This document shows positions 28,422 to 62,327 of a stretch of 64,000 bases of DNA, one piece after another. Each line of letters opens with the position of its first letter. Within the stretch, counting starts at the first letter, position 1. The notes beneath the pieces are model-generated. The model made no database searches, was not told where the DNA came from, and saw only the letters and a list, made by a program, of their open reading frames with translations. Where the stretch lies: positions 2,108,001 through 2,172,000 of the forward strand of contig OX439050.1 of the NCBI GenBank assembly GCA_949317995.1, given 5' to 3'. Position numbers and translations under genes: made by a program. Source of the DNA: Acholoe squamosa (Eukaryota > Annelida > Polychaeta > Phyllodocida > Polynoidae).

Positions 28422-29800
28422 TTGCTTCACTTACGATGCGACGAGCCTGCGCCCGTTTGATTTTAGAATTTGCCAGGTTTTCAGCTGTAGGGTTGGAACT
28501 GAATTTGCGCAAAGCCTTTTTGCGTGCCTTGATGGTGTTCTTGCAGTTATTGTCAAACCAGGGGTTTCTTGGACGTTTTGGTGATGTTGATGTTTTTGGT
28601 ACAGTCTTTTCTGCTATAGAGTGTAGTGTGCTGGTGAAACTTTCCATTGTGACCTGGGTATTGAGTTTGTCCTGGCACAATGATTGGAATGTGTTCCAGT
28701 CAGCTTTGTTCAATTTCCAATTGGGTTCTCTTTTTCCAATATTGGGCTCTTGTAATTGTAAAAGGATGGGGAAGTGGTCACTTCCATGGAGGTCATCCAA
28801 GACTTTCCATGAGAAGTCTGGGAGGAGGGACGGATCAGCTATTGATAGGTCTATGGCGCTGTATGTACCATGTCCCGGATGAAGATAAGTATTTGAGCCA
28901 TCATTTAGAAGACCCAAAGAGTTTTGAGCTAGGTAATTCTCTATGGTGCGTCCTATAGCATCAGTTGAAGTTCCACCCCATATGGGGTTATGCCCATTCA
29001 CGTCCCCTAGGATCATAAATGGGGTTGGGAGTTGGTTCGTCAGTTGGACGAAATCTTGCAGAGTGACAGGTGATCTTGGTGGGATATAAAGGGAGACAAG
29101 AGTGATGGTTTTATCTAGAGTAATTGTAACGGCAGTTGCTTGGAGGTTTGTAGTGAGAGGTAGTGGGCTATGTAAGACATCATAACGGACCAAGATTGAG
29201 GTGCCACCAGTGGCTCTATCACCATCTGGCCCGAGCGTGTTATACGTTTTGAAGTTTTTAATTGATATAACATCTGTGTCCTTTAGATAGGTTTCTTGTA
29301 GGCAAAATGCTAGTGAGTTCAATTGTTGGCATAATATTTTGAGTTCATTGAAATTGGCTCGAAAGCCACGACAGTTCCACTGAATGATTCCTCCACTTAT
29401 CATACCGGGTGGTGGATAGGGGAGGGAGGTCTATTAGGACCTTTAGGCGATGAGGAGCAGCGGACTGGGCCACTCTCTTCCATATCTATTTCTAGTGAGT
29501 TGAATCTGTTCTGGGTAGGGCAGGTGCGATCACCCGGTAGGAGATGTTGTTCTCAGCTTTTTTTGTTTGAACTTCCTTTTCTTTTTTCCATACTGGGCAG
29601 GACTTTGATATGGCCAAATGGTCGCCCTGGCAATTGGAACATTTTGCCTGGTTTTGACAGGTAGTGTTGTCATGACCATTTTGGCCACATCGAAAGCAGA
29701 TGGGTTCCAGGCGACAAGAGTTCTTTCCATGTCCGAATTTCTGGCACTGGTAACAGCGCAGAGGATCCGGAATGTACAGGTTTACTTTCACGATCAGGTA
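28422..29800 (-). mobile_element. LINE family A, copy 2, part 1 (endonuclease to middle of ORF1)
   Basis: Nearly identical to family A copy 1. It includes the endonuclease frame (29403-28408, open to the LINE B junction) and, after the ORF1/ORF2 overlap, the zinc-knuckle part of ORF1. Against copy 1 about 330 bp of the ORF1 tail is deleted at about 29535, fusing the knuckle region to the last codons. RT and RNase H are absent: the sequence ends at the LINE B tail. At 29800 the frame is cut by the Polinton and resumes at 62322. Confidence 0.92.
29795..29800. repeat. 6-bp target-site duplication of the Polinton (left)
   Basis: CAGGTA here and at 62322-62327. The uninterrupted LINE A copy 1 has a single CAGGTA at this place in ORF1 (near 13083-13088), so the empty site is present in the same window and proves the duplication. 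Confidence 0.95.
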
Positions 29801-29902
29801 AGTAGTATCTAAGACGGTCTCCTATAAATCACACCTTTTGAATTGAAGATTTCAATTTAAAGTTTGATTTCAAAAGGTGTGATTTATAGGAGACCGCCTT
29901 AG
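29801..29902. repeat. left terminal inverted repeat, itself a hairpin
   Basis: An 8-bp outer tip (AGTAGTAT) is followed by a palindrome: arm 29809-29842 pairs with 29869-29902 with about one mismatch, around a 26-bp loop. The same structure is at 62220-62321. Confidence 0.93.
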
Positions 29903-31477
29903 AAATAGAACTTATACTAAGCTACTTTAGGTTTTAAATAAAAGAGGTCAAGTGGTACCCATGTCACGAGTCTTGTTCTTTTTCCGCTGAGCTTTTGGTG
30001 CAGAGGAATCAACTGATTAGTGAATGTGCTTTGGAGTGAGGAGGAGAGAGGATTATACTCGTCAGTAATGATCGACGGTTTTTAAGGTTTTTAGTTAGTC
30101 AGTAATGATCGACGTTTTATTAAGGTTTTAGTAATTCTTCCGGGTTAAGCCGGGCATCCGGGTTAAGCCGGGTATAGCAACATTCATTTTCAGCACAGAT
30201 CTGGAAGCACTCACTGGGGCTCGGCAATCTAGGTGGCGTTACCTGAGCACGAGGACCATTACGTATGGCTCAAGGGCCACCAGTGGAAGCAGAGGAGACA
30301 TTTTGACAGTCTCTGAAGGCTTCAGCTGGATAACCGCGGCATAGGCGGTATGGACATATCTCATGGTAGAGATTTTGTGCGCAGCGAAGCCAGACGCAGA
30401 CGCACCAGTGGCGTGAGCAGAAGTGAGGTGGCTCGTGACATGGGGGCCGGACCTCTCTATTTACTGTTTGACATCGGCTTTCTTATAAACCCCCTCACGT
30501 TGGTGAAACCACAGATGTGGTGTTTACTGTTAAAGCACACGAGCAAATACATTTTTAGTGATCAGGATATAGATTCTTTTAAATTCGGAATACTTCTCGT
30601 GTATAGCGCTCTTTCTCTTCTGTTTTTTGATATGTTTCATTCGTCTTAATGAAGAATATCTATTACGTTATTAAAGGAATTTACATTGGTAGCTTACAAT
30701 TGAGACGATAGATTTCGAATGCGTTCCGAACGCAGGACGCATTTTGTTGTCTCCCTCTTGCGATAAAAGCAAGAACTGTCAGGCGCATTTCGCCAATCTG
30801 CGTCGATCGCCAATTTCATCTTGCGCCAGGTACTAATAGTGTGAGATTTCAATAAAGTTAACCAAGATTTTCTTACAGCGCTAGCTTACAATTGAGATGA
30901 CAGATTTTCATTGCTTTCCTGAACGCAGGGCGCATTTTGTTGTCTCCCTCTAGTGGGAAGAACTAGCATTGATCTATATGTTGTATTTTTGGCAGACGCG
31001 CATGGTTTTTTAACTTTGAAAAATCACAGAGGTGTTTTACACCATGTTATGAAGTTAATATTTTAAGATAAACGAAGTTTTACTATTTTTTAAACGAATT
31101 TTGTAACATTGTAACATTGAGTAAGTATCTTTTGTTTTTTCGTTAGTTTTGTATAAGGAAAATTTGCTGGTATTTAAGGTGCTTTAGATCGAGGAGTTAC
31201 ACCCGCTGACTCTAGCACAGTGGTGGACGCTACCAATTTAGAGCTCCATTAAAGATAATTAAGCTGTCTTGTGAATTCTTTATTTTGTTATATGTAATAG
31301 GATCATTGGTAAATTAACATAGAATGTTTTGCTGTAATAAGATACGGCTATTTCTATGTGAATTCTTCACTGCCGCCGCGAGAAGGCTATCCTATAGAGC
31401 AGCATCTAAATTTTGATCTTAATGGTCTAAAATTTCCCTGTTTTAAAATGTAGTTTATGTATGGGAACTTAGATACT
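29903..31477. other. non-coding left arm of the element, with a direct repeat
   Basis: No gene supported. A 70-bp block starting AGCTTACAATTGAGA occurs at about 30691-30760 and 30883-30953 with substitutions. A short doublet (CAGTAATGATCGACG) occurs at about 30064 and 30101, and a CCGGGTTAAGCCGGG repeat at about 30138 and 30160. A 99-codon frame at 30350-30649 has no recognisable features. Confidence 0.6.
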
Positions 31478-32191
31478 TTATGATATAAACCCCTGATTTA
31501 TGTAGATTTTGTGTAATATATCATACACGTTGGGGTATTCAGTAGGAGCACATCCAGTGTGACATTTTTCTATTTTTTTTAAACACAATTTGAACAGATC
31601 GGAAGAATATACGAAACAACAGCCTTTGATAACATAAAGTTTTTTCTTGTTAAAAAATCTGCTATAATGCCAAAAGGTTCCTACCAGTGCTTCTTTTATG
31701 GAATTTTTGTTAAGTGATTCATTTTTTATCCAGCTTTGGATGATTGAACTTTTTACCCCATTGCGATGAGCACTGGTGTTAACCTTTAAGATATCTAATA
31801 TATCTTTAACTGAAATGCGATGACATAAGATGTGAACAAGCCAATAAACATGAGCATCGTCCATTATCCCATGGAACATGGTGGCTCTTATTAGCATTCT
31901 CAATGGTATACCATGGGCACAATCTGTGGCTGTATATGAGCTGTCTTTTTCTTCAATATTTTTTTGAAATTTTTCAACAAGAAATTTCAGATGGTTGTGA
32001 AAAGGACACAGGTTTTTTTTAGCTGGTTTCTGACATTCTGTTGCAGTACCATTAAGTGCTGAACACTTACCACGGTGTGTCACTGGATCTGCTCTCTTGT
32101 CTCTTAGCTCCCATAGGAATTTAGTATTGATGTTGTATTGAAAAACCTTCATAAAAGGTATAGTAGCCTCAAGTAAACCAAGGGATGCCAT
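31478..32191 (-). CDS. hypothetical 237-residue protein, possible death-fold-like segment
   Basis: A single open frame from a good initiation context (AAGATGG). The N-terminal 75 residues contain a Cys/His cluster (RGKCSALNGTATECQ, LCPFHNH) that could bind zinc. Around residues 120-170 the pattern ISVKDILDILKV then IIQSWIKNESLNKNSIKEAL looks like the last helices of a death-fold domain, but this is weak. The C-terminal part has more Cys residues. Its strand is opposite to the viral core and its A+T content is high. It may be single-exon element cargo or one exon of a spliced gene; no function is assigned. Confidence 0.55.
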   Translation of the reverse strand: MASLGLLEATIPFMKVFQYNINTKFLWELRDKRADPVTHRGKCSALNGTATECQKPAKKNLCPFHNHLKFLVEKFQKNIEEKDSSYTATDCAHGIPLRMLIRATMFHGIMDDAHVYWLVHILCHRISVKDILDILKVNTSAHRNGVKSSIIQSWIKNESLNKNSIKEALVGTFWHYSRFFNKKKLYVIKGCCFVYSSDLFKLCLKKIEKCHTGCAPTEYPNVYDILHKIYINQGFIS

Positions 32192-33693
32192 CTTGTCTCG
32201 CCAAGCAGTTATAGCAGAGTGAGTCGTTATTAAAAACTTGACCCTAATGAAAATTGGGGGTTGACCTGCATCTTTCTTTGTTGTAACGTTAAGTAAGGTT
32301 AAACAATATTAAAGTATTTGTTTCACAACATTTTGTTGTTTTTTTTACTTCTTTCTCTTTATAAACTTTTATGATGATAAAAATATTGGTTTTAGCTTTA
32401 AAATTTACACCTGTTTAAGTATAAAGCTTTAAAAAAATCATTTTCAATGTTTTTTTAAACTAGGTTTACAATAAATTTGGTTGGCCTTATGTAAGGCGTC
32501 ATGTGTGTTTCGAAATCATGTAGGGAGCGCCTTTAGCAAATTGCTGACCAGTGGTCATCTCATTATCACTCATGTCCTTAGTAAGGTCAGCATAGCTTAG
32601 GGCTAAAGCTGACCGCTGTTGACCATTTTTATGAGGGACACTACAACGATATAGCTCCAGGTAGTTGTCATTTCGAAGTAATTACATGCAACTTTTTTAT
32701 GGTCAGCTTCTTGCTTTGATTCATGTTCACATTTTAGATGTTGACTTTAATTTACATCATTTGGACATTGCATAATGGTATAATATTTCGTTATAATTAA
32801 ACATTAATAAAACACTATCTTGTTTGCTTGATAGCATTTATTTTAACTAAAAGATTCATACCATATATGAGTGCTATCTTAGCAATATAACACAGATATA
32901 AAATCTAAGTAAGTTAAGGATAACTAGAGACTATGGTATATATCCTGATTACTGGTTTTTAATATGCATTGATGAAGAAATAGTGAGATTGCTTTATAGC
33001 ACTTCATTGGAGCATCATGAAGACCAATGGGTATAATATATAAGCAGACTGATGGACACCACCACTAAACTAAAGATAAAAGATCGTAAGCAGCTCTGCA
33101 TGGTTTATAGGATGCTCCAATGAATTCTTGTTGAGCAGATTTATCCATATTTCATTGGAGCATCATAATGACCTATAGGTACAATATATAAGCAGACTGA
33201 TAAACACCAGCACTAAAGTATAGATAAATGATTGTTAGCATAAGTGTTAACCTAGGATTCCTTTGAACCTTTTTTGTACTGGCTGAAATCTAACACTACA
33301 ATAGCTTGCATATGTAGCACATATATAGGTAATTTAAGAGTTAACATGGAGTTTCCATGAAATCTTATACAATTTTAATAGCGCTTTATTTTTATATCAT
33401 ATAAAAAAGTTATGATATAGTTCTATTTAAGATACTTTTTGAGCTTAATATGATGAGTAAATAATTGCTTTTACATATTGCTATTTAAGGGTGAGATACT
33501 TTAAGATATCTTAAATAAGTGACCCATAGGATGGCGACTATGATCAGATCTAAATCATGATACAGAAATGATGTTATCATGATTTTTAGTGCTTAACTGT
33601 TTATAACTTATTGCTTTTTAAGTGATCCTTCCATTTGGGTTTTATCTCAAACAAAAATATGGTGGCTTTTACCATATAATATAGCAGGATAAT
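32192..33693. other. non-coding, contains a promoter-like direct repeat
   Basis: No gene supported. Two related blocks of about 92 bp (33001-33092 and 33149-33240) include TATATAAGCAGACTGAT, which looks like a TATA box with downstream sequence. CATTGGAGCATC at about 33006 and GATGCTCCAATG at about 33112 form an inverted pair. Confidence 0.55.
33001..33240. repeat. direct repeat of about 92 bp with TATATAAG boxes
   Basis: Copies at 33001-33092 and 33149-33240 (period 148 bp) align along their length, including TTCATTGGAGCATCAT and ATATATAAGCAGACTGAT. A duplicated promoter for a plus-strand transcript is one reading; no plus-strand ORF follows nearby. Confidence 0.7.
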
Positions 33694-35676
33694 TTATAAT
33701 TCCTGCATTTCCACTGATTCCCCACCAGACAGTGGTTCTGCACATTCGCTCCATAGTGATTCCCCTCTTTCCATGTATGCCATTCTTTTGGTTTTATTTT
33801 CTTTAGTTTTTTCCCTCTTCATTAATTTGATGCCAAAAGTTATAGCCAGAATGAGACAAATCATGAAACCCAAAGCAGTGATCACATTGGTATATACCAA
33901 GGTGTTAGAGAGCTGTTGACTTATACCTTGAGGCAAATTAGTTACTAAGGTTCCATCCTGCGTTGTGGCATATGTTGGAGACATAAAGCTTCCAGATATG
34001 GCATTTATGAGAGTAGTCCTATGGCGAAATGGAAGGTTAGTTTTTTTCCTCAGGCATTGGACTTGTTTCAAAATTAGCTGACACAGCGCTTATTTCCATT
34101 GTTTCACCTGCAGATGTGAAATTTAAATATGAGGTGACAGCTGCTTTCAAAGGCGAGGAGGGGAAAGATGTTGCAACATTTGCCACAGTGGTGACATCAC
34201 TTCCCCTGTCTATATAAATGGAGGAGCTCTGATCAGCATCATCATTCACACGGGTGGACGTCAACACGCTGTCTGCACGAGGAGAATTTTTCTCCAGAGT
34301 TTCTGAGCCATTGTCTATATAAGCTGAGGTGCTGTCTGATTTTGTAGTTAAGCTAGCACTTTCAGCGGTCAATTCTATATGATAATTTGCTGCTTTAGTA
34401 GTTGCTGATGACTTCTTTATGAAGAGAACGGTCTCAGTTGATGCTATCTCACTTTTGGGATAGATGCTAGCGCTGCTAGTTGACGCTCTCACACCTTCAG
34501 GATAGGTAAGTTGAATTTTCCTGTGGGAAATAATTATTTTCTATATTTTTTTATACGAGAAATTTTTTATCATCTAAGCTGGGGGGTCAAACTCATGTTT
34601 AGGATAGTTTACCTTCAGTTAGGTCTGAAACACATTACGGTTATACATTGTAGTTTTTCCCAGGTGAGAAAAATCGAAGCCACGTGTGTTGAAGACTGGG
34701 GGGAGATATTTTTTTTAAGCTAGCAGGGTTTTTGTTAGAGAGGATAACACTTAGTCGCCCTTTTTTTCCCCATTGAAACAAGAAATAAACTACAAAGGAA
34801 AAAGTCAGCTTTTTTTAGTTTAAGTTAGATAAATTCCGAGAATTTTTTTATTATCTAAGCCGGGGGGTCAAACTCATGTTTAGGATAGTTTACCTTTAGT
34901 TAGGTCTGAAACACATTATGGTTATACATTGTAGTTTTTCCCAGGTGAGAAAAATCGAAGCCACGTGTGTTGAAGACTGGGGGAGATATTTTTTTTAAGC
35001 TAGCAGGGTTTTTGTTAGAGAGGATAACACTCAGTCGCCCTTTTTTCCCATTTAAACAAGAAATAAACTACAAAGGAAAAAGTGAGCTTCTTTAGTTTAA
35101 GTTAAATAAATTGCTGCTTTTAAAATATACCATAGCATGCTTCATTGCAAACTTTTGTGAGGAGCTTAAAACTAGCTTTAAATTTAGTTTATAGATCTAT
35201 TGGTTTAGTACATGTATATTTCACAGGAGGTCGCCAGCAGCATGTAAGTTTACCTGTTACCTGACTGAAATCACTGGTGCATGACCTTACCTGCTACCTT
35301 GCTGACCTATTCTCAGGGCTATAACTTGCACATGCGCAGAGGACTTGACTTTGGCTACACAAAGGACATTGATCGTCATATTATTAAGTATCAACTTTTC
35401 ACAAACTTACCTACATGTTCCATAGGAGCAATAGAAAATAGGTATTCCTTTTATCTCAATTCTTCTTAAGAAGGGGAAAGTATTGGTGCTGTAATTTATG
35501 TGGTTTATATCAACGAAATCTTCCCATTCTACAAAGGAGCTTTTCACTGTGTCCACCGTGGCACGTGTTGGTAGACAGTTGTCACATTTTAAATGCTGTT
35601 TTTTTTCACAAAAACACGATTTTGCCTCTATGATAGAAACAGCAGAGAGCAGAACAAATATAACCATGCAGTACAT
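33694..35676 (-). CDS. spliced mucin-like single-pass membrane protein
   Basis: Exon 1 (35676-35411) starts with a signal peptide (MYCMVIFVLLSAVSIIEA) and a Cys-rich stretch (SCFCEKK, CDNCLP, YCSYGTC), and ends at a consensus donor AG/GTAAGT. Exon 2 begins at 34520 after TTTCCCACAG and joins in phase (the split Arg codon is completed). It encodes about 150 Ser/Thr-rich residues that look heavily O-glycosylated, then a membrane helix (VITALGFMICLILAITFGI) and a basic, then acidic, cytoplasmic tail. A frame break lies at 34041-34047, a run of seven T on the plus strand, so an assembly indel is likely. About 360 residues in total, a type I receptor-like layout. Encoded on the strand opposite to the viral core; origin (host capture or viral envelope-type protein) unknown. 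Confidence 0.75.
34561..35112. repeat. two-copy tandem repeat of about 280 bp inside the intron
   Basis: Copy 1 from about 34561 and copy 2 from about 34841 share long identical runs, for example around GGGGGGTCAAACTCATG and GATAACACT(T/C)AGTCGCCC. They lie wholly within the intron of the mucin-like gene. Confidence 0.85.
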
Positions 35677-38037
35677 GGTGCTTGCTTAGAATGAAGAAAG
35701 AATAGCTCGCTAAGGGAATTGAGGGAACAACAGACTCGACCCTATTCTTTATCTATGATTTAAGTAGAACGCATGGTGTTAACTTACATCTTACATTCCG
35801 CTCTGTCGATACTCTCCATTTAAGTTAGGTGTAAACAGCTTTATACACCAGCCATTAAGACCAGGAACATGACCCAGCTGTTCTGATACTCTAACCAAAG
35901 AATGGACCTGTTTACCGTATTTCCCCATGTATAAAACTGAGCTAATACAAGCAAAACTGTCAAATTAACTGGGTCTATATGTTATGCACCAAGTAGGAAT
36001 GGACACAATTCCGGAATTGCCCATTACTGATTTTGCCCAATTCTGGAATTGTCCTCTCTTAGGCTGCGCAGTTCAGGAAAATTTAACCCTTTAGACCTTA
36101 AAACGGCCAAAAACGGTCGGGTCTAGTCTCCTCAAAACGACCATTGACGGTCAATTTTTGAACAATTTTCACTGATTTTTCATGGCAAGACAAAAGCAAA
36201 TATCACTGATGAGAAATTAACAGAAGTTGCTGTTCCTGTTTGATACTGTTCAGCCGAACTTAAAAGTTGAATTCTTATCACCATATGAGCATTAGAAAAT
36301 TTACAAAGGTTTAAAGTGAGGTGAAGGGCCAAAAAAATGCCCATTTTTAGCTAAAATCGGTGAAATCTTGAGGAAATAAAGCATTGTTTCCTGCAATTGG
36401 TTGAGGTCTAAAGAGTTAAATGAAATAAACATTCTAACATTGCACAAAGGTTTGCAAAATGTCCATCCTTGAAAATTCCTTGATACCTTTGGTTTAAAGA
36501 GTGATGGGTAACTCATAATTGCACCAGAGTTTGTTGTTTGACAGTCCCAATGTGTCATTCTCACAGCTTAATTCACACCTAAAGTTAGATGTAAGATGCT
36601 TCAAACATACCCTATACAACACCCATTACAGCTTGTGGGCAAGGTGAAAAATAAAATGACACATAAATTTTAGAGATCTGATTTTAAATCAAATTGTTCC
36701 AACAGAATTATCTATTAGGCTTTATTATTCCTAAACTGTGCAAATTCCCATATTGTGCATAACATATACACAGGGTAGGGATATACATGGGCTAAGGACT
36801 ACAGTGTTTTTTTCACATATTTTGAATATAACTTAGTTAATACACGAGGTAGACCAATACACTTGACTAAGCCAATACACGGGGAAATATGCTACATAGA
36901 GCTTTAACTGAAAGGTGATGGAATATATTTATAGCAGAGATTTAGAGCTGTTAATTTTTTTATAAAAATGGCAGATATGCTGTATCTCAAGGGAATTTGC
37001 AAGCCAGAGTTAACACATGATAGCTCATATTGTATGTGAGATTCTTTTATGCTTAGGGGATTTTGGTTCATACAATTAGTTTTGAGAGCATGGATTGCTA
37101 TAGCAAAGACCAGTTTTACTAATTGGCTTTCCCATTTAGTGGGCTAAGGTTTCATATTGTGAGAAATTAAGTTACATTTATGTTGCAAGTTTACTTATTA
37201 TGCTTTGGGCAAACTGGGTTTAGTAGTTTGGCTTGCTTAGGGTCTCAAATTGCTAAAACCCACATTGGCAAGATCTTTTTAAGATAAAAAATAGTTATAG
37301 AGCTGAGTGACAAGGGACAAAAACACTTTATAAAATTAACAATTTGACAACAGCACTCAGATAATTGAATTAAACTGTCAGCGTGAATTTCTCCATGAAA
37401 TTGTTATATGATTTTAAATATCAAACTGTCAGCGTGTATTTTTCCTTCATATTGTTAGTGCGAATGCTTTATAGCTGTATGAATTCCATTATTCAATGAA
37501 CTTTTAGACATGTAGTAACTTATAAAAAATCTTTAAATGTGCAATGAAGCTCATACACACAAATGCATTACGGTATTGTTAATAACACTGAGAATTGTTG
37601 CTTTTTCTTAATTTAATAGCAGTTTAAAAACATTGAGTTATAAAGACAAAGAGCAAGAAACTGAACTTTTTGTAATAGCCATATAATATTTGATATGCTA
37701 AATCTACATTATTTGACTTACAGAAGAAAGCTGCGGTTCCATTCCTTAATGCTCGTTTGCTGAGAGTCACCTAGACGTTCCACAAATGGGCTACAGATGG
37801 TCTACCTTTAGACATCCATGAAAAGGATCGCTCGATTTAAGTGAAGCTGTTTGGACTCTGATCTTTTTCAGAAAGCGCTGAAAACTCGTAAAGCTTCACC
37901 TAGGATAAAAGCTGAGTCCACTTTTAAAGGTAGACACTGTAAACTTTTATCAAACTAATGCAAGTGTCCATTGAACAAGTGTTTATTCAAATTGTTCTTG
38001 AAAAGCGCTGAAAACTTTTAAAGCCTTATTGCTGTAA
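35677..38037. other. non-coding spacer upstream of the viral gene block
   Basis: No gene supported. Short motifs repeat: AAACTGTCAGCGTG near 37372 and 37425, and AAGCGCTGAAAACT near 37873 and 38004, the second just before the first viral ORF. The last 300 bp also contain TTTAAAGGTAGACACTGT, related to motifs upstream of other viral ORFs. This may be the early promoter region. Confidence 0.5.
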
Positions 38038-38496
38038 ATGGATTTGGCTAAACTAGAAGAGGATAAACCAATTGATATTTATTATCTTTTAATCAATTTT
38101 ACAACAAACGGTCAAGGATTTTGTGAATGTTTTTATTGTAATTTTCTTGGAACAACACATTTTCATGCATCTTTTAAACCATATGAACATATTTGCCCTC
38201 CTTATGAGGTTATAACTCACGACTTAGTTGAAAAAGTGTCAGAAATAGCAGAACAGATTAATCATCAGTTTCATCCAATTACTACTTTAAAAAATCTATG
38301 TTTAAGTTTATCTAAAGTTTACCTTAAAGACACTAGGAGAGAAAAGCTCCTTTCAATTTTACCTTTGAGCTTAGTAGATGATATTTTATCTGAAGAAGAT
38401 TTCATTAAAAAAACTAGGCGACTAAGCATAAACCATCTTCCTATTTTATTGAAACATCACATAGGAGAGCAAATTGTTTACTGTCTCTATGACTAG
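38038..38496 (+). CDS. Polinton accessory protein 1, Cys-rich, unknown
   Basis: 152 codons, first gene of the plus-strand block. Residues 25-40 contain GFCECFYCNFLG, a CxCxxC cluster that may bind zinc, followed by HFHASF. The rest is helical. The next ORF carries a related cluster in the same relative place, so the two look like diverged duplicates. Its stop overlaps the next start by 8 bp. No family recognised. Confidence 0.65.
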   Translation: MDLAKLEEDKPIDIYYLLINFTTNGQGFCECFYCNFLGTTHFHASFKPYEHICPPYEVITHDLVEKVSEIAEQINHQFHPITTLKNLCLSLSKVYLKDTRREKLLSILPLSLVDDILSEEDFIKKTRRLSINHLPILLKHHIGEQIVYCLYD

Positions 38497-38854
38497 GTTT
38501 TATCTCGCATTTAAAGATAGTCAAACTGAAGAACTTTGCTCTTGTCATAATTGTACATATATGCTACATACTTTAGACATAGCAGATTTTTCTGCCAAAT
38601 ATATTACATTTAATCAGATTATAACAGAAACATGTGTATACAATGCGAATTTAGCTCTTAATGATTACACCAAAGTAAATCCTCGAGATATAGTAAATAC
38701 ACCTTCTTATTATCAGGCTCCTTTTTTTGATTTTCACTTTACAACTAGCATTTTTTTATTTTCCATAGTTCAGCATGAGGGCTATATTCCTATGAAAAAG
38801 TTGCGTAGTGAAGCTGAATTTTTTCCTTCATTGGGAGAAATATCAAAGTTATAG
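38489..38854 (+). CDS. Polinton accessory protein 2, Cys-rich, possible paralogue of the preceding gene
   Basis: About 121 codons from ATG 38489, overlapping the previous ORF in another frame. FYLAFKDSQTEELCSCHNC matches the position and spacing of YYLLINFTTNGQGFCECFYC in the previous protein. An open upstream extension exists, so the two ORFs might instead be one gene split by an indel; no homopolymer sits at the junction. Function unknown. Confidence 0.6.
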   Translation: MTRFYLAFKDSQTEELCSCHNCTYMLHTLDIADFSAKYITFNQIITETCVYNANLALNDYTKVNPRDIVNTPSYYQAPFFDFHFTTSIFLFSIVQHEGYIPMKKLRSEAEFFPSLGEISKL

Positions 38855-38872
38855 ATTTTAGGCTTGCTTTCA

Positions 38873-39490
38873 ATGCCTATAGATTATTCTACCCATCTAG
38901 TTGTGTTAGGATTAACAGCATTACCTAAGTCATCTTTTGACATACTTTCATTTCAAAGAGAGGTGGTGAATTCTTCTTCTTATAGAGGTTCTATAGTGTA
39001 CTCTGAAAAAGATTACACTTTAAAATTTACTAAAAATAATTATTGTTATATATTTATAAAAAATAGTATCCCTCATATTTTATCTAAGATAGAAGACTTT
39101 ATTTATTCCTCATGCATTAATTTTTTTGAAAAATACAGCAAAGATAATATAATTCAATACAGTTTAGACATTGTAAATATTCAAATATCTTTTACTATAA
39201 TTAAAGAAGGAATTAAATTTCATGATTTTTGCTTTAAAATAGTGTCAAGTTTAGAAAAGGGCTATAGCATAGAAGTTAAAGAATCGAATTCATATGAGTC
39301 AATATGGTTGGAAATAAACCATAACTTATTAAACTCAAAGCAATCTTTTGATGCTATTAGGTTTTCTTCTCTTAGAATAAAAAATAAAGGAACAACTTTT
39401 TCTTTTACTCACACTTTTACTGGAAGTTGTATAACTAAAGATATAAATCAATTTCTGTTTTTATGCAATCTTGTTGAGAAAGTTATATGA
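38873..39490 (+). CDS. Polinton accessory protein 3, possible two-repeat TBP-like fold
   Basis: 205 codons. The protein seems to consist of two halves with similar strand/helix pattern. The second half ends SFDAIRFSSLRIKNKGTTFS then FTHTFTGS and a helix, which resembles the saddle of TATA-binding proteins (FPALIxR, ...FSSGKIVxTGAKS). The match is by eye only and weak in the first half. If right, the gene could encode a viral TBP for its own promoters. Otherwise unknown. Confidence 0.6.
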   Translation: MPIDYSTHLVVLGLTALPKSSFDILSFQREVVNSSSYRGSIVYSEKDYTLKFTKNNYCYIFIKNSIPHILSKIEDFIYSSCINFFEKYSKDNIIQYSLDIVNIQISFTIIKEGIKFHDFCFKIVSSLEKGYSIEVKESNSYESIWLEINHNLLNSKQSFDAIRFSSLRIKNKGTTFSFTHTFTGSCITKDINQFLFLCNLVEKVI

Positions 39491-39534
39491 AGCTAAGGTT
39501 CTCTGTAAACTATATTTTAATAATAAATTAATTC

Positions 39535-40692
39535 ATGGCTTCTGTCATAGATAATTTATTAAGGGTGATACTGGTTTATTTATTAGAGGATACTCCTAGC
39601 AATACAGAATATTGGGACAGGGTTCATTTATGTGAAGAACATAACTTAAATTTTGCTTTGCATCACCTATATAAAAAGTATCATCACAACAAAGAATCTT
39701 ACATAGATCCTTTAATTCAGGAAACTAAATCGTCTCTTCATTCTTACATTAAAAAAAATAAAAAAATTAGACAATTTTATGAGGTTTTATGCGGAGAAAA
39801 TAATGGTATAATAAAAGATATAACTTCTTCAGAAAGTATTTTGATAAAATGTTTGGTTGAAATTCTCCAAATAAATATCATTTTTTATTACAGCCACGAT
39901 AAATCTTCAGAATACAGAAGCTCAAAACAGAGTTTAAAACCAGGGAAAGGACTTTCATTGTATTTCAACTTTTTTACTTCATTAGTAGAAAAAGTAAATG
40001 ATGAATTGTATCACATGCCTTCTTTAGAAAAATTGTCAGATTCAGCTTTAAGTTCTTTTAATTCTTGTAAAAAAGAGAGCATCACGTCCACTTCTCAATT
40101 AAAATTAAAAGACAAAAATAAAAGCCGGTCTAACATTAAACAGCGACCATCCTCTTCAGAGCAAAACAGTTCTACAGAAAGTGAGAGTGACAATGACCCA
40201 GTAAAAAAAAAAGATCACCCTGCTTTCATTCAATCACAGCAAAAATTACTAGGTATTTTACATAAAGATTTAGAAGAAAGTGACAGTAATGAAGAAGATA
40301 TAAAAGGAACACATTCTCTTCCAAAAAGAAAGAAAGTTAGCAAAACTTTATCAGACAGCAATGATGATTTAAGTGAGGAAGAAATTACTGATTTTAAAAA
40401 TAAAGTTCAAAATAAAAAGATAAAAATTCCTTTATCAGTAAGCCATCAGGTAAAAGAACTATCTGAATTTAATCCAACATCTACTTAATTTGAACCACAA
40501 ACAGATACTTGCAGAGCAAATTTGGAAAGGACTATAGCTATATGCGATAGAATAAAGAGTCACGCAGAAGTATTTTTAAGGAATATTTTACCAGATAATA
40601 TAAACAGATGTGCATGTTGTTTTTTACATTGCACACCTCCTTTAATTAAAGGTACTAAAGGACGAAGAGGACCTAAAAGTAAAATCAAGTAG
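39535..40692 (+). CDS. possible OTU-fold pseudoenzyme with acidic tail; in-frame TAA
   Basis: The frame is open for 317 codons to a TAA at 40486-40488 and then stays open in the same frame to a TAG at 40690-40692. The first 150 residues recall OTU deubiquitinases: EEHNLNFALHHLYKKY sits where GDGNCLFRA is expected, and CLVEILQINIIFYY where the late alpha/beta core lies, but the catalytic Cys is absent. A long Ser/Asp/Glu- and Lys-rich tail follows, typical of acidic nuclear proteins. The part after the TAA has a Cys cluster (CACCFLHC) and a basic end (KGRRGPKSK). Either readthrough or a nonsense mutation explains the TAA. The OTU call is tentative. Confidence 0.6.
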
Positions 40693-40723
40693 CAGTTAAA
40701 AAACTTTTCATCTTTAAAATCTT

Positions 40724-40912: not shown

Positions 40913-40914
40913 CC

Positions 40915-43743: not shown

Positions 43744-43744
43744 A

Positions 43745-51995: not shown

Positions 51996-52057
<62 letters not shown>

Positions 52058-53110: not shown

Positions 53111-54460
53111 ATGTCACTCATAGATGAGAGTCCTTGTCACTGTATAAGTTCAGATTTAGATTTTGACAGTGTGCCTTTAGCAAATACTTCTGTTGAAAAA
53201 AACTATTATGAAAAAGTTGAGCCTACGGCATCTGCAAACAGTGGTACTGTTCAATTTTCTCTTAAGTCAAACAACAAGGATTTCATTTCTTTACATGACA
53301 GCTTTATCCAAATAAAAGCAAAAATATTAAAAGAAGACAAAACAGCTCCAAGTGCTCCTGATGCAAACACTCCAAATGTAATTAAAGACGAAGCAAGGGT
53401 GTTTCCAGTAAACTTTTTTGGAGCAAGCATATTTAAAAATGTAAAAGCATTCATCAATGGTATAAGGATATCAGAAAGTAATGACTTATATGCATACAAA
53501 GCTATGTTTGAAATGCTGCTTAGCTATGATCCATTAGTTGCTAGCCGACTGGGTATACTATCTTTATTTTACAAAGACACCAAAGATTTTAATGAAATAG
53601 AAAACGTAAATAGTAATACACACAATGCAGGTGTCAAGCAGCGCTATAATTTAACTAAAAACGGAACAGAAATAGAAATGTTGTGTCGAGTTCACAATGA
53701 CTTGTTCGCACAAACTAAGATGTTTCCAGGGGATTTACCTCTTATCATAGAATTCGATAGATCAGATGAAAAGTTTTGTTTAATGGCAAAAGAAGCTGAC
53801 AAAAAATATATAATTCAAATAGAAGATATGAATATGTTCATAAAAAGATATCGCCTAACAGATAGTTTTTACAATGAATTAATGAGAGCACGATTAGATC
53901 AGAATTTCACTTTAAAATATAATATGAGGAAAACATTAATGAAATATGTTACTTTTGGTCCTAATAAATCAATATTACAAGGATCACATATTGTAAATAA
54001 CACAGAATTACCAAAAAGAGTCATTATCTCTTTAGTAAGACTCGATGGCTTCGCGGGTCATTATAATCATAATCCATTTAAATTTGATAACTTCAATGTA
54101 ACAGAAGTAGAATTAAAAGTTAACGATGGAGGTACACCTTTTTATCAATATAATATAGATTTTCCCAACAATAAATATTTCATGGCATATTTAGCTATGC
54201 TAAAAGGTACAGGAAATATATTCAGAAATGAACCTGTGAATATAACCCCTGAAGAATTTAAAAATGGATATGCGCTTTACTGTTTTGATTTATCAAGAAA
54301 TGGAATTAATTCAGAAACGTTTGAACTATCAGAAAACGGATCTTTAAGCTTCACTTTTAAATTGGGAACAGTCCCCACCCATGGAATAGCAGCTGTTATT
54401 TATTTAGAATACGATTCTCTTTTAATATTGGGACCTAACAATGCCACTTCATTAAAATAA
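53111..54460 (+). CDS. MCP: major capsid protein (double jelly roll)
   Basis: 449 codons, intact, close to the length of Polinton/adintovirus capsid proteins. Landmarks: IKAKILKED early, then VKAFINGIRISESN, LDQNFTLKYNMRK, the strand HYNHNPFKFDNFNVTEVELK, NGYALYCFDLS and the final VIYLEYDSLLI. These correspond to the first and second jelly rolls of hexon-type capsid proteins. It would form the trimeric capsomers. Identification by pattern and by context (pVI-like gene before, protease after). Confidence 0.85.
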   Translation: MSLIDESPCHCISSDLDFDSVPLANTSVEKNYYEKVEPTASANSGTVQFSLKSNNKDFISLHDSFIQIKAKILKEDKTAPSAPDANTPNVIKDEARVFPVNFFGASIFKNVKAFINGIRISESNDLYAYKAMFEMLLSYDPLVASRLGILSLFYKDTKDFNEIENVNSNTHNAGVKQRYNLTKNGTEIEMLCRVHNDLFAQTKMFPGDLPLIIEFDRSDEKFCLMAKEADKKYIIQIEDMNMFIKRYRLTDSFYNELMRARLDQNFTLKYNMRKTLMKYVTFGPNKSILQGSHIVNNTELPKRVIISLVRLDGFAGHYNHNPFKFDNFNVTEVELKVNDGGTPFYQYNIDFPNNKYFMAYLAMLKGTGNIFRNEPVNITPEEFKNGYALYCFDLSRNGINSETFELSENGSLSFTFKLGTVPTHGIAAVIYLEYDSLLILGPNNATSLK

Positions 54461-54464
54461 TAAA

Positions 54465-54993
54465 ATGAACGGTGAGGAATTAATAAGCATTTTAGAAAAA
54501 GATAAAAATATAACCAAAGGAAATTATGGTATTTATGCAGCAGATAAAATCCCCATTATAAAATCTTATCCTACAGCTTTCATAGCAAATACAGATGTAA
54601 GCTATCTTCCTGGAGAACACTGGGTAGCATTTTATTTTAAATCTAAAAATAATATTCCTGAATATTTTGATTCATATGGATTACCTCCAATAAGATATTC
54701 TTTTTAAAAAAAAATTATCCAAAAAATACAAATATTCTTCACATACTATACAAGCACTAACATCTTTAAGATGTGGAGAATACGGCTTATATTTTTAAAA
54801 AAAAAGAGCCTCTAATATAAGCATGCAAAAAATTATATCTAGTTTTTCTTCTGACACTTTGTGGAATGAAAAAAAGATTCAACTCTACATAAATAAACAA
54901 ATAAACACTCCTGTGAATAAAAAAAGAAAAGGATCCAACTATGGACAATATAGCATTAAACATTGTGATTTCATAAACAACTTAAAAAAATGA
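54465..54993 (+). CDS. PRO: adenain-like maturation cysteine protease, two frame breaks
   Basis: Starts 5 bp after the capsid gene's stop codon. The catalytic His is in GEHWVAF, the acidic partner in YFDSYG and the Cys in LRCGEYGLYF (all seen in the DNA, the Cys in a second frame). The frame changes in a nine-A run at about 54706-54714 and again in another A run at about 54798-54806; each change is a one-base event. Ends at a TGA at 54991-54993. In adenoviruses and Polintons this enzyme processes capsid precursors. Both breaks sit in homopolymers, so sequencing error is likely. Confidence 0.82.
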
Positions 54994-56103: not shown

Positions 56104-56700
56104 ATGGATAGCTATATAGTTACTCCTATCATCAAATCTTATCCTTCTGATAACACTCTTAAAGAGATAAGCTCCATGTTTTATCATGACTGGAAAAAAA
56201 TGGGGATATATCTAAACGTCTCAAAAGTAGATTTGATGTCACTAGAGGATCAAAAATCTTTGTATGATATGTCATTAGATATATTAAATTTATGGTGGGA
56301 AAATAATCATAGCCTTAATGACCTTAAAAATGCTTTAGAATTAAGCAAACGAAAAGATCTAATTGAATTGGCTAACATATTTTGTATAGAAAACAATATA
56401 TATCCCTTTAATATGAATGAAAAAAAAATTCAAATATTATTGTCAAAAATAGCAGAAAATATAGGAAAAGAATGGATAATTATAGGAATTCAACTTGATA
56501 TACCATATGAAACACTCAACATGATAAGAAGTCAAGCATCTTGTAGTAATCCTTGTAATCGAGCATTAGAAGTATTAAAACTGTGGAAAAAGAAGCAGAC
56601 TTTACCTGCCTCAGAATTCATAAATGTCCTTAAACATGATATGCGTAGAAATGATATTGCACATTTTTTACAAACTAAAATTATAAATTCCTGCTATTAA
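56104..56700 (+). CDS. tandem Death-domain protein
   Basis: 198 codons, intact. Two death-fold units. Unit 1 (about 15-90): HDWKKMGIYLNVSKVDL then LDILNLWWENN and LKNALELSKRKDLIELA. Unit 2 (about 115-190): LSKIAENIGKEWIIIGIQLD, IRSQASCSNPCNRALEVLKL and FINVLKHDMRRNDIAHFL, the canonical Death-domain order with the conserved Trp of helix 2 and W-containing helix 5. Death domains assemble apoptosis and innate-immune complexes (FADD, MyD88, IRAK, RIPK types). A free-standing pair without an effector domain would be suited to act as an adaptor or decoy. The host pathway is unknown. Confidence 0.82.
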   Translation: MDSYIVTPIIKSYPSDNTLKEISSMFYHDWKKMGIYLNVSKVDLMSLEDQKSLYDMSLDILNLWWENNHSLNDLKNALELSKRKDLIELANIFCIENNIYPFNMNEKKIQILLSKIAENIGKEWIIIGIQLDIPYETLNMIRSQASCSNPCNRALEVLKLWKKKQTLPASEFINVLKHDMRRNDIAHFLQTKIINSCY

Positions 56701-57159: not shown

Positions 57160-57666
57160 ATGGTTAAACACATATGTAAATACTATGAAAAAGTGGAAAA
57201 TTCTTTTGATGAATGTATACTTCCTTTTAGGACATGGTCAGTTATGTGTTCATATACATGTAAGCAATGGATAATGCTTCAACCACAGTGGAAGCTTAGA
57301 TTAAAACTTGAAATAATTTTATACTTATTTTACAATTTTCACCATAAAAAGTATTCAGAATATCATGATATATGCACTTTTTTAAAAGAAAAAAGTGTAA
57401 AAAATATGATGTATGAGGCATATGATCATATTTTTAAAAAAACTGGGTTTGATATTAAAAATGAGAAATTGGTGGAAAATATAGCTAAAAACATATCACA
57501 AAAATATAAACTCAAAGAATATCATTTATGTTTAATGATACAATGCAATGTATCAATGTACTTAATGATAGAATGGTTTGCGTCAAAGCAAAAAACTAGT
57601 TGGAATACTTTTACATCAAAAATGTCGATCAAAGCTGAACCACTAAAACAGTTTTCATATCAATGA
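57160..57666 (+). CDS. hypothetical protein, possibly a diverged death-fold relative
   Basis: 168 codons, intact, Tyr/Lys-rich. The end part (LVENIAKNISQKYKLKEYHL to MIEWFASKQKTSWNTFTSKM) aligns loosely with unit 2 of the Death-domain protein (LSKIAENIGKEW to EVLKLWKKKQ...FINVL), but with a shorter middle. It is the last ORF of the viral block. A partial duplicate of its 3' end follows at 57971. Confidence 0.55.
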   Translation: MVKHICKYYEKVENSFDECILPFRTWSVMCSYTCKQWIMLQPQWKLRLKLEIILYLFYNFHHKKYSEYHDICTFLKEKSVKNMMYEAYDHIFKKTGFDIKNEKLVENIAKNISQKYKLKEYHLCLMIQCNVSMYLMIEWFASKQKTSWNTFTSKMSIKAEPLKQFSYQ

Positions 57667-59456
57667 AATAAAATCATTTATAATAACAGTTTTTGCAAAA
57701 GTGCTTTTAATCATTATTATCTTTTAAAGGAACCAACCCAAAAACAAGACATAATCCATACCCTGGAAACAATTTCTCCTAAATTTATGTGATTTTACCA
57801 AAAGATTTAATGCATTTCACAATATTGATCATAGGAATTCATGTGAATTTGTGAGCAGCAATTCACGTGAAATTCAACAGACACATGAAGGTCATGTGAT
57901 TTCACGTGAATTTCACGTGTACATCTAGCAATAAAAAGAGAAAAACTTGTGAAATCCACAAGAATTCATATATCAAAAATCTCAATGAAAGCTGAGCCCT
58001 TAAAAGAATTTGCACATGAAAAAAATCAAATTATTTTCTATTCCGGTCTCTACAATGCTGCTTTAAATCATCTATAATCATCTCAGTTCATAGGATTCAG
58101 TACAAATCCACCTTTTTGAATTTCATCGGTTCAGGTGAAACCTGCTGATAAGAAATATAGGAGTTTCAGCATAACTCACAAGCGTCTGTCAAAACTCCTG
58201 TTGTAAGAATGCAAGCATCACGCTATTCTACATAAGCGCGCTCCATATAGATATCGCATAATGAATGCGATGTACATTACTGCCCTAAGGAGATAGGTGG
58301 ACATAACAACTGCATCTACCACACTCGCTCTCTATTTGCAAACTCGCATGCGTCCTTAGAAAGGAAAATAGCAGTGAACCAATTTTTATAAGAAGACATT
58401 TGAAAAACATTTTAACAAAGAGCAATCCCAAGGCAAAGGATGAGTATAAATAGGCTTCTTATTTGTTACTGCACTTGTAACATGTGTTTTCATAATGATA
58501 TCATGGTTAAACAGAGAAGAGTTATCGGCTTCGCTATTAATTATAGATCACGTGACGACGCCGATGAGCAGTCCACCATCTTGCTTTATCTTGAAACCTG
58601 CTTTAAACCTTGGAAGCCTGAACCTAAAAAGACGCTCAACTTTCACGTTAAAATGAGGTAAGAAACTTTCCACACATGGCTTAGGCATAGCAGAACATAG
58701 AGCGGTGGTATGGAAGCCTTTACCTCACCATAAAACTAAGCAAAACGAACCAATGACGTAAACTAATGCGTGCACAAATGATCATCCTTTCCCGCCTTCT
58801 CGCAGCCTCTCTCACCCAGGGCCATATAGGATCTAACCCGGTGTTTACTTAAAACTGACAATTGAAAATGGGCGACCTAAGATATTCATTTTCACCAATG
58901 ACATTTGATTGACCAAAGGTAGCAACAGTAGGGACATGGTAGTTAGAAATACAGGGTTGACCCGGGGTGCTATATTCCAATACTGTCTGGGGGTTAAAGG
59001 GTAACTTGCTCGCTGTCCTACACTCTTGCTGGGACATTTTAGAATTAATTGACCTTTACTTCATAAGGAGCCAAGCCAACTTGACATGTGTGCGTTCCTT
59101 TTCCCATAAAACCTGATATCATTCGTGGCTTCATCCCTTGTTACAGTTTGACCGTAAAATGGGGTACTATAGCTGACATAGTCATTGTCAGCTGGAGACC
59201 TTCATTAGCCCCCCGAGGGCACTATGACTAACACCTTCAGTCTCCGTCTCCGCAGTAAATACCGGGGATGCCTCCCATTGGTTAATAACACAATAGCCAT
59301 TTGTCATATAGTATTATGATATGGATACCCATATGCATCTCTTAACTTGCTGCTCACAGTTCAGTATGGAAAATAAAATAATGTTTAAGGTACCTGTTGA
59401 TCGAGCGTATGAATTACAAATAGGAATTAAAATATTGTATATGCTATCTTTCACAG
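57667..59456. other. non-coding right arm, with CACGTG palindromes and a gene-end duplicate
   Basis: No complete gene supported. At 57831-57925 several AATTCACGTGAA-type palindromes and CACGTG sites cluster. At 57971-58034 the sequence repeats, with changes, the last 60 bp of the preceding ORF. From about 58050 composition becomes less AT-rich. A 73-codon frame at 58440 has no recognisable features. Confidence 0.5.
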
Positions 59457-60939
59457 TTCTCCTCAAGATAGCAACATGAATAAGTCCCAGCCAAAGGAAC
59501 CTCAAGACAGCGGCATCATGTATGAGTCCCAGCCAAAGGAGCCTCAAGATAGCATGTAAGAGTCCCAGCCAAAGGAGCCTCAAGGCAGCAAGATATATGA
59601 GCCCCAGCCAGACGAGCCTCAAGATAGCAAGATGGATGAGCCCCAGCCAGAGGAGCCTCAGGATAGCAAGATAGATGAGCCCCAGCCAGAGGAGCCTCAG
59701 GATAGCAAAATGGATGAGCCCCAGCCAGAGGAGCCTCAGGATAGCAAGATGTATGAGCCCCAACCAGAGGAGTCTCAATACCCTTTGCCTCCTCTCATTA
59801 CTGAATCGCTGTGGGACATCATGCCTGAAGAAGAAAAGGAGGTATGTGGAAAAATTTTGAGCCATTTTTAACATGGATACCATTGATCAGATATCTTTGC
59901 TGATGTGGCAGTAGGAGCATGAGATTTTTATGAAAGAAAAAAATTCCCCCAAAAAACTTTCTCTTTATTTGGAAAAAGCCATAACAGAAAGTACATCTGA
60001 TTTTGTTGTTGTAGGATTGGCGTCACCAACAAGTAGAGGAATATCTAAAAGAGAAAGAAGACTATTTAGCCGTGAGTAAATAAATGTTATTTCTTATAAG
60101 TAGTTTTAAACAGTGCTCCTAATATTTTTTAGTTAGGGGCTTCTCAAGTCATTGTATTGCTATATCAGTAAATACCCCCCAAAACAATTAAGCTAACCAA
60201 GAATAAAATCATGTGTCATGAGCCAAAAGAAGTGACATATCGTAAAGTCTCTCATATAAGCCTAGGCTTATACGAGAATTCGAATGAAATTGAATCTTAT
60301 AGAATAGTCCTACAGAGGGGGTAGACTTATACGATGGTGTTCAAAACTAAGGAATAGTGCTAAAACATCCATTTTCAGGCCACAGATTAGACCTATGTGG
60401 TCTTCCCAAAGAGGGAGTCGGCTTATACGAGGGTTTGGCATATAGAAGAGGTTTTACGGTAGTCATAATTTGTTTTTCCAGCGGCTTGTGGGATTCCATC
60501 GCGCAAAGCTACATTGGGCCAAAGAAAAAGGCGATCCACAGGGAATTCTCATCAACCAGGTAATTTTTAATTTTTATTACAACACAGTGTATTATTTTTA
60601 TCTTGGACATAGGGTTAAACTTGAAGCTTTGTAGCCAAATTGCAAAATTGTATTTAACCTTAAAATCAAACTTTGGAACCTCACAAAAAATGTACAAGCA
60701 AATTCAAGATTGGTTTTCAAATTAATATTTTTCTAAGTTGTTGTCTCCGCTGGTCAGCCATTAAAATAATGTTTATTCACCATATCTGAATCCATGTAGC
60801 CTTTAAATTTTCATCATTTAAAAGTTGCTTTTCTATTTTAATTTCATAGGCTGCCCTGGAGGAGGCTACTCACGGTTTGGAAAATGCAGAAAAATGCCAC
60901 CACGACTGGAGAAAGATGAGAGAAAACGCGAACAAGTAG
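59457..60939 (+). CDS. four-exon gene with 39-bp coding repeats (partial, one in-frame stop)
   Basis: Exons 59457-59841, 60015-60071, 60482-60559 and 60850-60939 have GT-AG borders (donors GTATGT, GTGAGT, GTAATT; acceptors TTTCACAG, GTTGTAG, TTTTTCCAG, TTCATAG) and all internal joins are phase 0. The first exon carries about eight 13-residue repeats of the type DEPQPEEPQDSKM. The rest encodes a charged helical protein (WRHQQVEEYLKEKEDYLA, LVGFHRAKLHWAKEK, ending WRKMRENANK and TAG). A TAA at 59558-59560 interrupts the early repeats; translation could start after it at ATG 59632. An upstream exon is implied by the first acceptor. Not recognised. It lies between the viral core and the right terminus. 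Confidence 0.65.
59470..59785. repeat. 39-bp minisatellite in coding sequence, about 8 units
   Basis: Units follow GATGAGCCCCAGCCAGAGGA with a spacing of 39 bp; early units have AAGTCCCAGCCAAAGGA in the same place. Unit length is a multiple of three, so copy-number change keeps the frame. Confidence 0.9.
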
Positions 60940-61439
60940 ATATCATCAGATTTTTTGAATAAGTTTATTAATCCAAGCTGATGTAAACATGATACATTCC
61001 ACCGCACCCGTCATAACGTGGAAAAAATAGTAATGTATGAGAGTGGGACATGTACATATATTGATTATAACAAGTCAATATACGGAAAATATTGTCATTT
61101 AACTAACATCTTTGACTCTATATAGTTTGCGAGAGTCTTTGTATGTCCTGTAAGGTGAGTTGTTATCAACCTTTGCATCACTTTGTAGTGTCTAACTGTT
61201 TATATATTCATGTATACTTAGCAGAAATACTATAATACTATCTGGATTTTACATGAAAGGAATATAAATAGAGTCATAGCAACACAGCCTCAGGGGTGGT
61301 ATTTTACTTTGTGTATTCTTCTATTAACCATATATAGGGAGTGATTTTAGTGGGTATGCACTTTCACTTTACATAGTTGACTAATTTAGTCTTAAACTAA
61401 TGAATAGTTTCTAGGTGATGCAGCTCAAAGCTTAGGTCG
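60940..61439. other. non-coding spacer
   Basis: No ORF or repeat of note. It includes sequence downstream of the four-exon gene; an AATAAG-like stretch near 60957 may serve polyadenylation. Confidence 0.4.
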
Positions 61440-62115
61440 TTCCAAGCCATTAAGTTTAAACACTGCTCTTGTATATCTTTCCAACCGGGATATAACTCAT
61501 ATGATTCATAAGGGGCTTTAACTGTGGTCTTCCATGAGCGCTCTGCTTACTGTAAGTTTTAAAAAGATTTGATATATAGCAGTATATTTGTAAAGATTTT
61601 CTCTTTTGTATATCAGCATAATTGTAGTAGATATCATGAGATTGGACAGTGCTTCTGTATATCTTTCCAACCAAGATATAACTTATATGATTCATAAGGA
61701 GCTTTAACTGTAGCCTACCATAAAGCCTCTGCTTACTGTAAGTTTTAAAAAGATTTCATCAGTATATTTGTTAAGATTTTCTGTAATATATAGCAGTATA
61801 TTTGTAAAGATTTTCTCTTTTGTATATCAGCATAATTGTAGTAGATATCATGAGATTGGACAGTGCTTCTGTATATCTTTCCAACCAAGATATAACTTAT
61901 ATGATTCATAAGGAGCTTTAAAGATTTTCTCTTTTGTATATCAGCATAATTGTAGTAGATATCATGAGATTGGACAGTGCTTCTGTATATCTTTCCAACC
62001 AAGATATAACTTATATGATTCATAAGGAGCATTAACTGTAGCCTACCATAAAGGCTCTGCTTACTGTAAGTTTTAAAAAGATTTGATCAGTATATTTGTT
62101 AAGATTTTCTTAATC
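61440..62115. repeat. irregular tandem repeat, about four units
   Basis: Blocks containing TATATCTTTCCAACC and ATATGATTCATAAGG recur at about 61469, 61658, 61870 and 61982, together with GTAAGTTTTAAAAAGATTT. Spacing varies because of internal deletions. It borders the right terminal repeat. Confidence 0.85.
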
Positions 62116-62219
62116 TGAATTAAACATATAATTTGAAATTTGATATCTTTGTCTTTCTTCATAGTATTCAAGTATAGGATAATTACAACATTCACCTAAA
62201 TGCAAAGTCAAATTTCAAT

Positions 62220-62321
62220 CTAAGACGGTCTCCTATAAATCACACCTTTTGAATTCAACATTTCAATTCAAAGTTTGAATTCAAAAGGTGTGATTTATAG
62301 GAGACCGTCTTAGATACTACT
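62220..62321. repeat. right terminal inverted repeat, itself a hairpin
   Basis: Arm 62220-62258 pairs with about 62275-62313, followed by the outer tip ATACTACT, the complement of the left tip. Loop sequences of the two ends run in the same direction on the plus strand, not inverted. Confidence 0.93.
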
Positions 62322-62327
62322 CAGGTA
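62322..62327. repeat. 6-bp target-site duplication of the Polinton (right)
   Basis: CAGGTA, matching 29795-29800; LINE A ORF1 continues directly with GCCAATTTTAAGCC. Confidence 0.95.

Follow-up and report, generated by a model that had tools for sequence, protein, structure and literature searches.

Did the 32.5 kb of DNA that interrupts a long interspersed nuclear element (LINE A) in the genome of the polychaete Acholoe squamosa arrive as one mobile unit, or did a smaller element grow after it had landed? We addressed this question in a stretch of 64,000 nucleotides, referred to as the window (GenBank assembly GCA_949317995.1, contig OX439050.1, positions 2,108,001 to 2,172,000 of the forward strand). 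The insertion is probably a real, large and virus-like Polinton (Maverick) of 32.5 kb that integrated as one unit. Polintons stand between transposons and adenovirus-like viruses. The core genes of this copy are those known for the group, whereas its hairpin ends and the apparent spliced genes in both outer arms are unusual. Because the ends are exact, the empty site is at hand, and the element includes two genes predicted to be spliced, cargo capture becomes directly testable at this locus, and the hairpin ends, if true, bear on terminus maintenance in protein-primed linear elements.

The limits of the insertion were read directly from the letters. The left junction (29800/29801) reads CGATCAGGTA followed by AGTAGTATCTAAGACGG, and the right junction (62321/62322) reads CCGTCTTAGATACTACT followed by CAGGTAGCC. 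The target-site duplication CAGGTA stands at 29795..29800 and again at 62322..62327, and the element between them covers 29801-62321 (32,521 bp), with AGTAGT as its first bases and ACTACT as its last. Sequence comparison placed the empty target site at 13083..13088, across which LINE A copy 1 is unbroken. Compared with this copy, positions 29536-29800 differ from 12824-13088 at 3 of 265 bp and positions 62322-62646 differ from 13083-13407 at 6 of 325 bp, the two alignments overlapping by exactly the 6 bp of CAGGTA. The protein of LINE A has 999 aa, with endonuclease and reverse transcriptase. The original prediction that LINE A is cut at CAGGTA and resumes at 62322, with an empty site near 13083, was borne out by the direct reading of both junctions and by the continuity of copy 1. 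Its further claim of a Polinton with ends of its own and a 6-bp duplication is well supported by the core genes, the mirror-image ends, and the empty site. Since both junctions lie in a repeated LINE and a 5.7-kb near-perfect inverted repeat is nearby, an assembly join of unrelated contigs within LINE A repeats was considered as well, but chance would not yield Maverick hexamers on both sides together with a duplicated target, and such a join is barely conceivable.

The ends were assigned to the Maverick/Polinton group by their motif: the available part of one survey gives 5'-(AGT)2//(ACT)2-3', with perfect 6-bp duplications, as the commonest vertebrate Maverick end (PMC8097293). The left terminal inverted repeat (29801..29903, plus strand) starts with AGTAGTA and continues as a 96-nt hairpin (29808-29903), and the right one (62219..62321, minus strand) comprises a hairpin (62218-62315) and the final bases TACTACT. 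These terminal arms are 103 nt each and 91% complementary. Folded as DNA, the hairpins reached -36.7 and -45.7 kcal/mol (z -14.9 and -16.4), and 0 of 200 shuffles were equally stable. Additionally, a 19-mer of the hairpin arm, allowing up to 3 mismatches, occurred at 4 sites in the window, two per end, against an expectation of 0.01. In this lineage, the 103-bp hairpin ends probably serve as the replication origin and as the termini that the integrase recognizes.

Ordinary terminal inverted repeats are expected to agree better in inverted than in direct orientation. Here, inverted alignment gives 91% agreement of the ends over 103 nt, and direct alignment gives 95% agreement of the hairpins over 97 nt. 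There are 6 sites where the two readings of the right hairpin differ; the left hairpin sides with the direct reading at 4 of them and with neither at 2, leaving 0 for the inverted reading. With only six sites, this pattern counts as a hint, which would accord with inversion of the terminal hairpins during replication, which is known for parvovirus terminal hairpins, or independent acquisition of a palindrome at each end. The same direct agreement, with each end a near-complete palindrome of about 97 bp, might also arise if the two ends were independent copies of a short hairpin element. We consider that extremely improbable, since AGTAGTA borders each hairpin on its outer side, so that the two ends mirror each other, the single CAGGTA pair fits one empty site, and no further copy was found in the window.

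The hairpins are unusual for Polintons. No hairpin-ended Polinton was reported in those titles and abstract openings of open-licence papers that were examined, and, in the partial texts of the literature examined, such ends are not described. Together with the large flanks, this could suggest that the ends came from a different, hairpin-type non-autonomous transposon that was later invaded by a Polinton and its neighbourhood. However, these ends carry the Maverick hexamer motif and a 6-bp duplication, and no inner Polinton ends were found, which makes a foreign origin of the termini very improbable. The arm 19-mer had 0 matches in the viral_contigs collection, and the 15-mer AGTAGTATCTAAGAC matched 77 stretches in bacterial and archaeal records, whereas chance alone was roughly estimated to give about 480 in 257 Gb. 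None of 79 loci contained either of two longer patterns.

Between its outer arms, the element harbors a gene set typical of Polintons. Of the features by which the group is recognized, we found an RVE integrase, an A32/FtsK-like ATPase, a double-jelly-roll capsid protein, terminal repeats with 5'-AG and a 6-bp duplication, and a suitable length. The core (38.0-57.7 kb, a span of 19.6 kb) has a GC content of 24-31% in every 1-kb interval from 38001 to 58000, and all open reading frames (ORFs) assigned to core genes are on the plus strand; two minus-strand stop-to-stop ORFs of at least 100 aa, one at 51928-52497 on the strand opposite a triplet repeat and the other at 56707-57072, were disregarded. 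The integrase (49210..50070, plus) matched Pfam rve at 9.2e-10 and a Ty3 integrase region at E 7.7e-4, and a candidate N-terminal part lies in another frame at 49070-49228. The packaging ATPase of A32/FtsK type (50054..50728, plus) was identified by Pfam, with a match to Pox_A32 above the cut-off (1e-7). The major capsid protein (MCP; 53111..54460, plus) was recognized from its structure model and fold matches, its Pfam double-jelly-roll match of 1.2e-3 being below the cut-off. The model, built from 25 sequences (pLDDT 85, pTM 0.86), matched in Foldseek the MCPs of Sputnik (E 7.5e-18, TM 0.63) and mavirus (E 4.3e-15, TM 0.55), these TM scores being normalized on the model, as well as PBCV-1 capsid proteins. 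Among viral models, it matched a bracovirus protein at E 1.1e-25 but with a TM of only 0.37, and an Adintovirus sp. capsid protein at E 9.3e-18.

The polymerase gene pPolB occupies 43745..46975 on the plus strand, as a 985-aa ORF up to an in-frame TAA at 46700-46702. Its protein had 360 relatives at E <= 0.001; among the 120 listed, the best was 71% identical, several carried PF03175, and one was named as PolB of a spider adintovirus (37% identical). PF03175 matched 6 of the 33 aligned pPolB members, and the window ORF itself was not matched. A tree was computed from these 33 rows, consisting of the window ORF and 32 relatives chosen from the 120 listed. The window protein paired with the relative P0029 (100/99) inside a 14-row set (100/99). 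The named mollusc, cnidarian, and spider-adintovirus rows belonged to a separate set of 13 rows (100/100), whose branch measured 0.56 changes per column; support was weak at the deepest forks. The capsid protein had 28 relatives, the best at 77%, none of which bore an adintovirus name. Capsid and polymerase relatives come from contigs of equal lengths (57,043, 119,694, 1,190,570, and 19,765), from which we infer that the lineage is present elsewhere with both genes on one contig. In pattern searches, the integrase pattern matched 1 stretch, encoding no relative, the patterns from the capsid alignment matched 62 and 47 stretches, none encoding a relative, and 2 of the 52 stretches found with the pPolB alignment were relatives, at 31-34% identity. 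These two loci were covered for 15,546 of 17,398 and 13,783 of 15,128 bases, one contig end lying outside.

How much of the 32.5 kb travelled with this core? In the Polinton family, a linear genome is copied by protein priming, and the integrase joins its ends to the target with a 6-bp stagger. The protein-primed polymerase would have copied nearly all 32.5 kb, both arms included, before insertion as one unit, and the RVE-type integrase would then have cut LINE A with a stagger and attached the AGTAGT/ACTACT ends there, leaving the 6-bp duplication. We infer movement of the whole unit because there is a single duplication pair and inner Polinton ends were looked for and not found. The region 35700-38100 had 3 11-mers in common with the complement of 57600-59500, close to the mean of 2.7 for 30 mononucleotide shuffles (largest 10), and low-word blastn between the flanks returned the termini only, all else being at E 0.08 or worse. 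An endogenous Polinton whose nearly complete length, including the arms with spliced genes, entered LINE A in one step is the likely explanation.

The two flanks amount to about 12.5 kb together. The left flank, from the terminal repeat to the first core ORF, covers 29904..38037 (8,134 bp), and the right flank covers 58078..62218 (4,141 bp). Exons were chosen in both by visual inspection of the sequence alone. On the left, minus strand, predicted exon 1 (35411..35676) has a signal-peptide-like start, a GTAAGT donor, and a phase that fits exon 2 (33694..34520), which holds a Ser/Thr-rich stretch and then, in another frame, a membrane-like segment recognized by eye; the predicted gene has one phase-matched GT-AG intron with a CAG acceptor before the Ser/Thr-rich exon. 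On the right, plus strand, a predicted spliced gene (59560..60939) consists of pieces of 282, 57, 78, and 90 bp (59560-59841, 60015-60071, 60482-60559, and 60850-60939), all in phase 0 and separated by three GT-AG introns. The left edge of its first piece is set only by a preceding in-frame stop and falls within a 39-bp minisatellite; this repeat (59461-59778, about 8 copies) reaches into the predicted first exon. For the G+C content at third codon positions (GC3), five flank pieces gave 0.31, 0.35, 0.375, 0.49, and 0.60; the 11 core ORFs were lower, at 0.16-0.25, and three LINE ORFs had 0.42-0.49. What is unusual here is the claimed splicing in the outer arms, accessory regions as such being normal for vertebrate Mavericks.

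Alternatively, an ordinary Polinton of about 20 kb may have inserted at CAGGTA and then grown in place through repeats and duplicated host segments. The 19.6-kb core span is an ordinary Polinton length, and the flanks contain tandem duplications (34556-35112, 59461-59778, and 61405-62110) and a candidate nested element (35973..36771). The latter has imperfect 45-nt inverted repeats (35973-36017 and 36727-36771), 76% complementary and 709 nt apart, which may be due to chance, and a further 21-nt pair (90%) inside. Such growth would, however, need separate gains for the spliced genes on opposite sides, and the LINE A copies differ at 9 of 590 bp, which leaves limited time since the LINE insertion. 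Short inverted repeats number 7 pairs in each flank, and besides the longest pair they measure 16-37 nt; none of at least 60 nt was found in either flank except the termini, although no systematic search for nested insertions with their own duplications was made. Growth after insertion is rather unlikely on this evidence.

Several observations nevertheless weigh against movement as one unit or against host-type cargo in the arms. A single copy of the element is known, within the window, and several core genes are interrupted in it. Both the right gene, with its upstream stop, and the left gene, with its frame change, are gene predictions from sequence only, and 35973-36771 is possibly a decayed nested transposon of about 0.8 kb. 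None of the flank proteins matched a Pfam family above the cut-off, the membrane-like piece staying sub-threshold at E 0.008 and above, and left exon 1 found nothing better than E 0.9 in PDB. A 237-aa ORF (31478..32191, minus) has no detectable relatives: it had no match in PHROGs, and in a large protein set, where it was the only flank protein searched, it gave 116 candidates with 0 at E <= 0.001. The dinucleotide distance (x1000) of the right flank was 64 and 67 to the core halves and 76-126 to three host stretches, and that of 33650-37700 was 39 and 56 to the core and 68-139 to the host. The remaining segment, 29910-33650, was clearly nearer to neither side (core 82 and 100, host 78-130). 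By this measure, the right flank and half of the left flank are closer to the core than to the host, and dinucleotides lend no support to flanks derived from the host.

Taken together, the claim in the original prediction that the whole element moved as one unit holds as the simplest reading, given one duplication pair and no inner ends, and is tempered by the single copy and by possible later growth of the flanks. Its figure of some 12 kb of flank agreed with our measurements (8.1 kb on the left and 4.1-4.6 kb on the right); the description of that DNA as non-viral is favored by the predicted spliced exons and GC3 and opposed by the dinucleotides. A bolder version of one-step integration, in which a Polinton lineage with parvovirus-like invertible (flip/flop) hairpin ends carries spliced host-gene blocks between genomes in a 32-kb transposing and possibly packaged unit, is doubtful.

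Because core genes are interrupted, this copy may be decaying, may have moved with the help of another copy, or may contain base-calling errors in A/T runs. In pPolB, the YSDTDS palm motif lies past the in-frame TAA in the same frame, and a frame change follows near 46.97 kb. Frame changes were also found in the penton candidate, the integrase N-terminus, and left-flank exon 2, and the break between the two pieces of the protease candidate was not located. All 4 overlaps between pieces (17, 13, 19, and 53 bp) hold or touch an A or T run of 6-8, and the first protease piece likewise has one at its end; 13% of the core is within 5 nt of a run of at least 6. As the spots were chosen after the frames had been seen, this association is no formal test. 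The TAA of pPolB is 161 bp from the nearest A/T run. Evolutionary slippage and base-calling error are both possible causes of the frame breaks.

The remaining core ORFs, all on the plus strand, include six without an assigned function (38038..42987; starts at 38038, 38465, 38855, 39532, 40915, and 42097). Those at 40915 and 42097 (40915-42987) are paralogous (25% identity, E 4e-20), with a Cys-rich C-terminal part in common, and matched no known family. A penton or minor capsid candidate (43010..43745), split over two frames, was tentatively assigned by resemblance, with no family match above the cut-off. An adenain-like protease candidate (54456..54993), in pieces 91 bp apart in different frames (54456-54707 and 54799-54993), had no Pfam match and a weak match (E 0.4) to the S273R protease. 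The ORF at 56104..56700 encodes a death-domain protein (Pfam Death 4.6e-12) that weakly matches FADD (E 0.043), may include a second death-fold domain, and is perhaps a cell-death modulator; its structure model was poor (pLDDT 40). No report of a Polinton or adintovirus with a death domain was found in the open-licence literature. The last core ORF, which ends at 57666, and a diverged partial repeat of its C-terminal stretch cover 57160..58077; the recurrence at 57600-58077 (SIKAEPLK/SMKAEPLK) suggests a local duplication. In the core ORF 51335-52441, a GAT run of about 22 copies (51998-52065) encodes a long poly-Asp tract. There were 0 Rfam matches at the gathering threshold and 0 from the tRNA scan.

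In the host part of the window, a 383-bp unit is repeated in 2.9 head-to-tail copies at 7071-8178, with 97% matches. Near the element, 15510-28412 forms a huge inverted repeat, with arms of 5,742 bp that are 99.7% identical and a spacer of 1,420 bp between them. One arm was scanned, and domains of reverse transcriptase, RNase H, and endonuclease were found in its ORFs; two LINEs placed head to head might account for the structure, as might an error of assembly.

Compared with known systems, the termini resemble parvovirus and poxvirus telomeres in having a terminal palindrome with an asymmetric loop able to lie either way. They differ in that an integrase-type AGTAGT precedes the hairpin, the element is integrated, and no resolvase or nickase was recognized. 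Adintoviruses combine PolB, an rve integrase, and adenovirus-like virion genes, and the available text lists as criteria an integrase C-terminal chromodomain, a PolB N-terminal OTU-like domain, and a hexon BLASTP-reciprocal with adintovirus hexons (PMC11071296). The present element shares the gene set, the 37% identity to the spider adintovirus PolB, and the capsid-model match, whereas its pPolB set is separate from the spider-adintovirus clade in the tree, and neither the integrase chromodomain nor the PolB OTU-like domain gave a Pfam match.

Cargo-bearing nematode Mavericks were reportedly described by Widen et al. in 2023. According to the accessible parts of two papers, nematode Mavericks carry host-type cargo and ferry genes between species (PMC10680173, PMC12941216); the element described here would likewise be a Maverick with host-type cargo, but its predicted cargo is another one. 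Regarding size, the portions of text available give 12.7-24.6 kb for intact vertebrate Mavericks (PMC8097293) and 15-25 kb, with some reaching 40 kb, for Polintons (PMC6431247). At 32.5 kb the element is large but no record and lies inside the published range. The earlier description as about twice the usual size is fair against the vertebrate elements, with the qualification that Polintons of up to 40 kb have been published. As far as the available part of PMC8097293 describes them, vertebrate Mavericks share with it AGTAGT//ACTACT, the 6-bp duplication, a terminal repeat within 46-1,447 bp, the genes for pPolB, integrase, ATPase, and capsid protein, and accessory regions outside the core. 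In the same text, core genes on one strand, as found here, are seen in Xenopus tropicalis and are not the rule. What sets the Acholoe squamosa element apart from the vertebrate Mavericks in that source is its length of 32.5 kb, its hairpin termini, and the predicted spliced genes in its outer regions.

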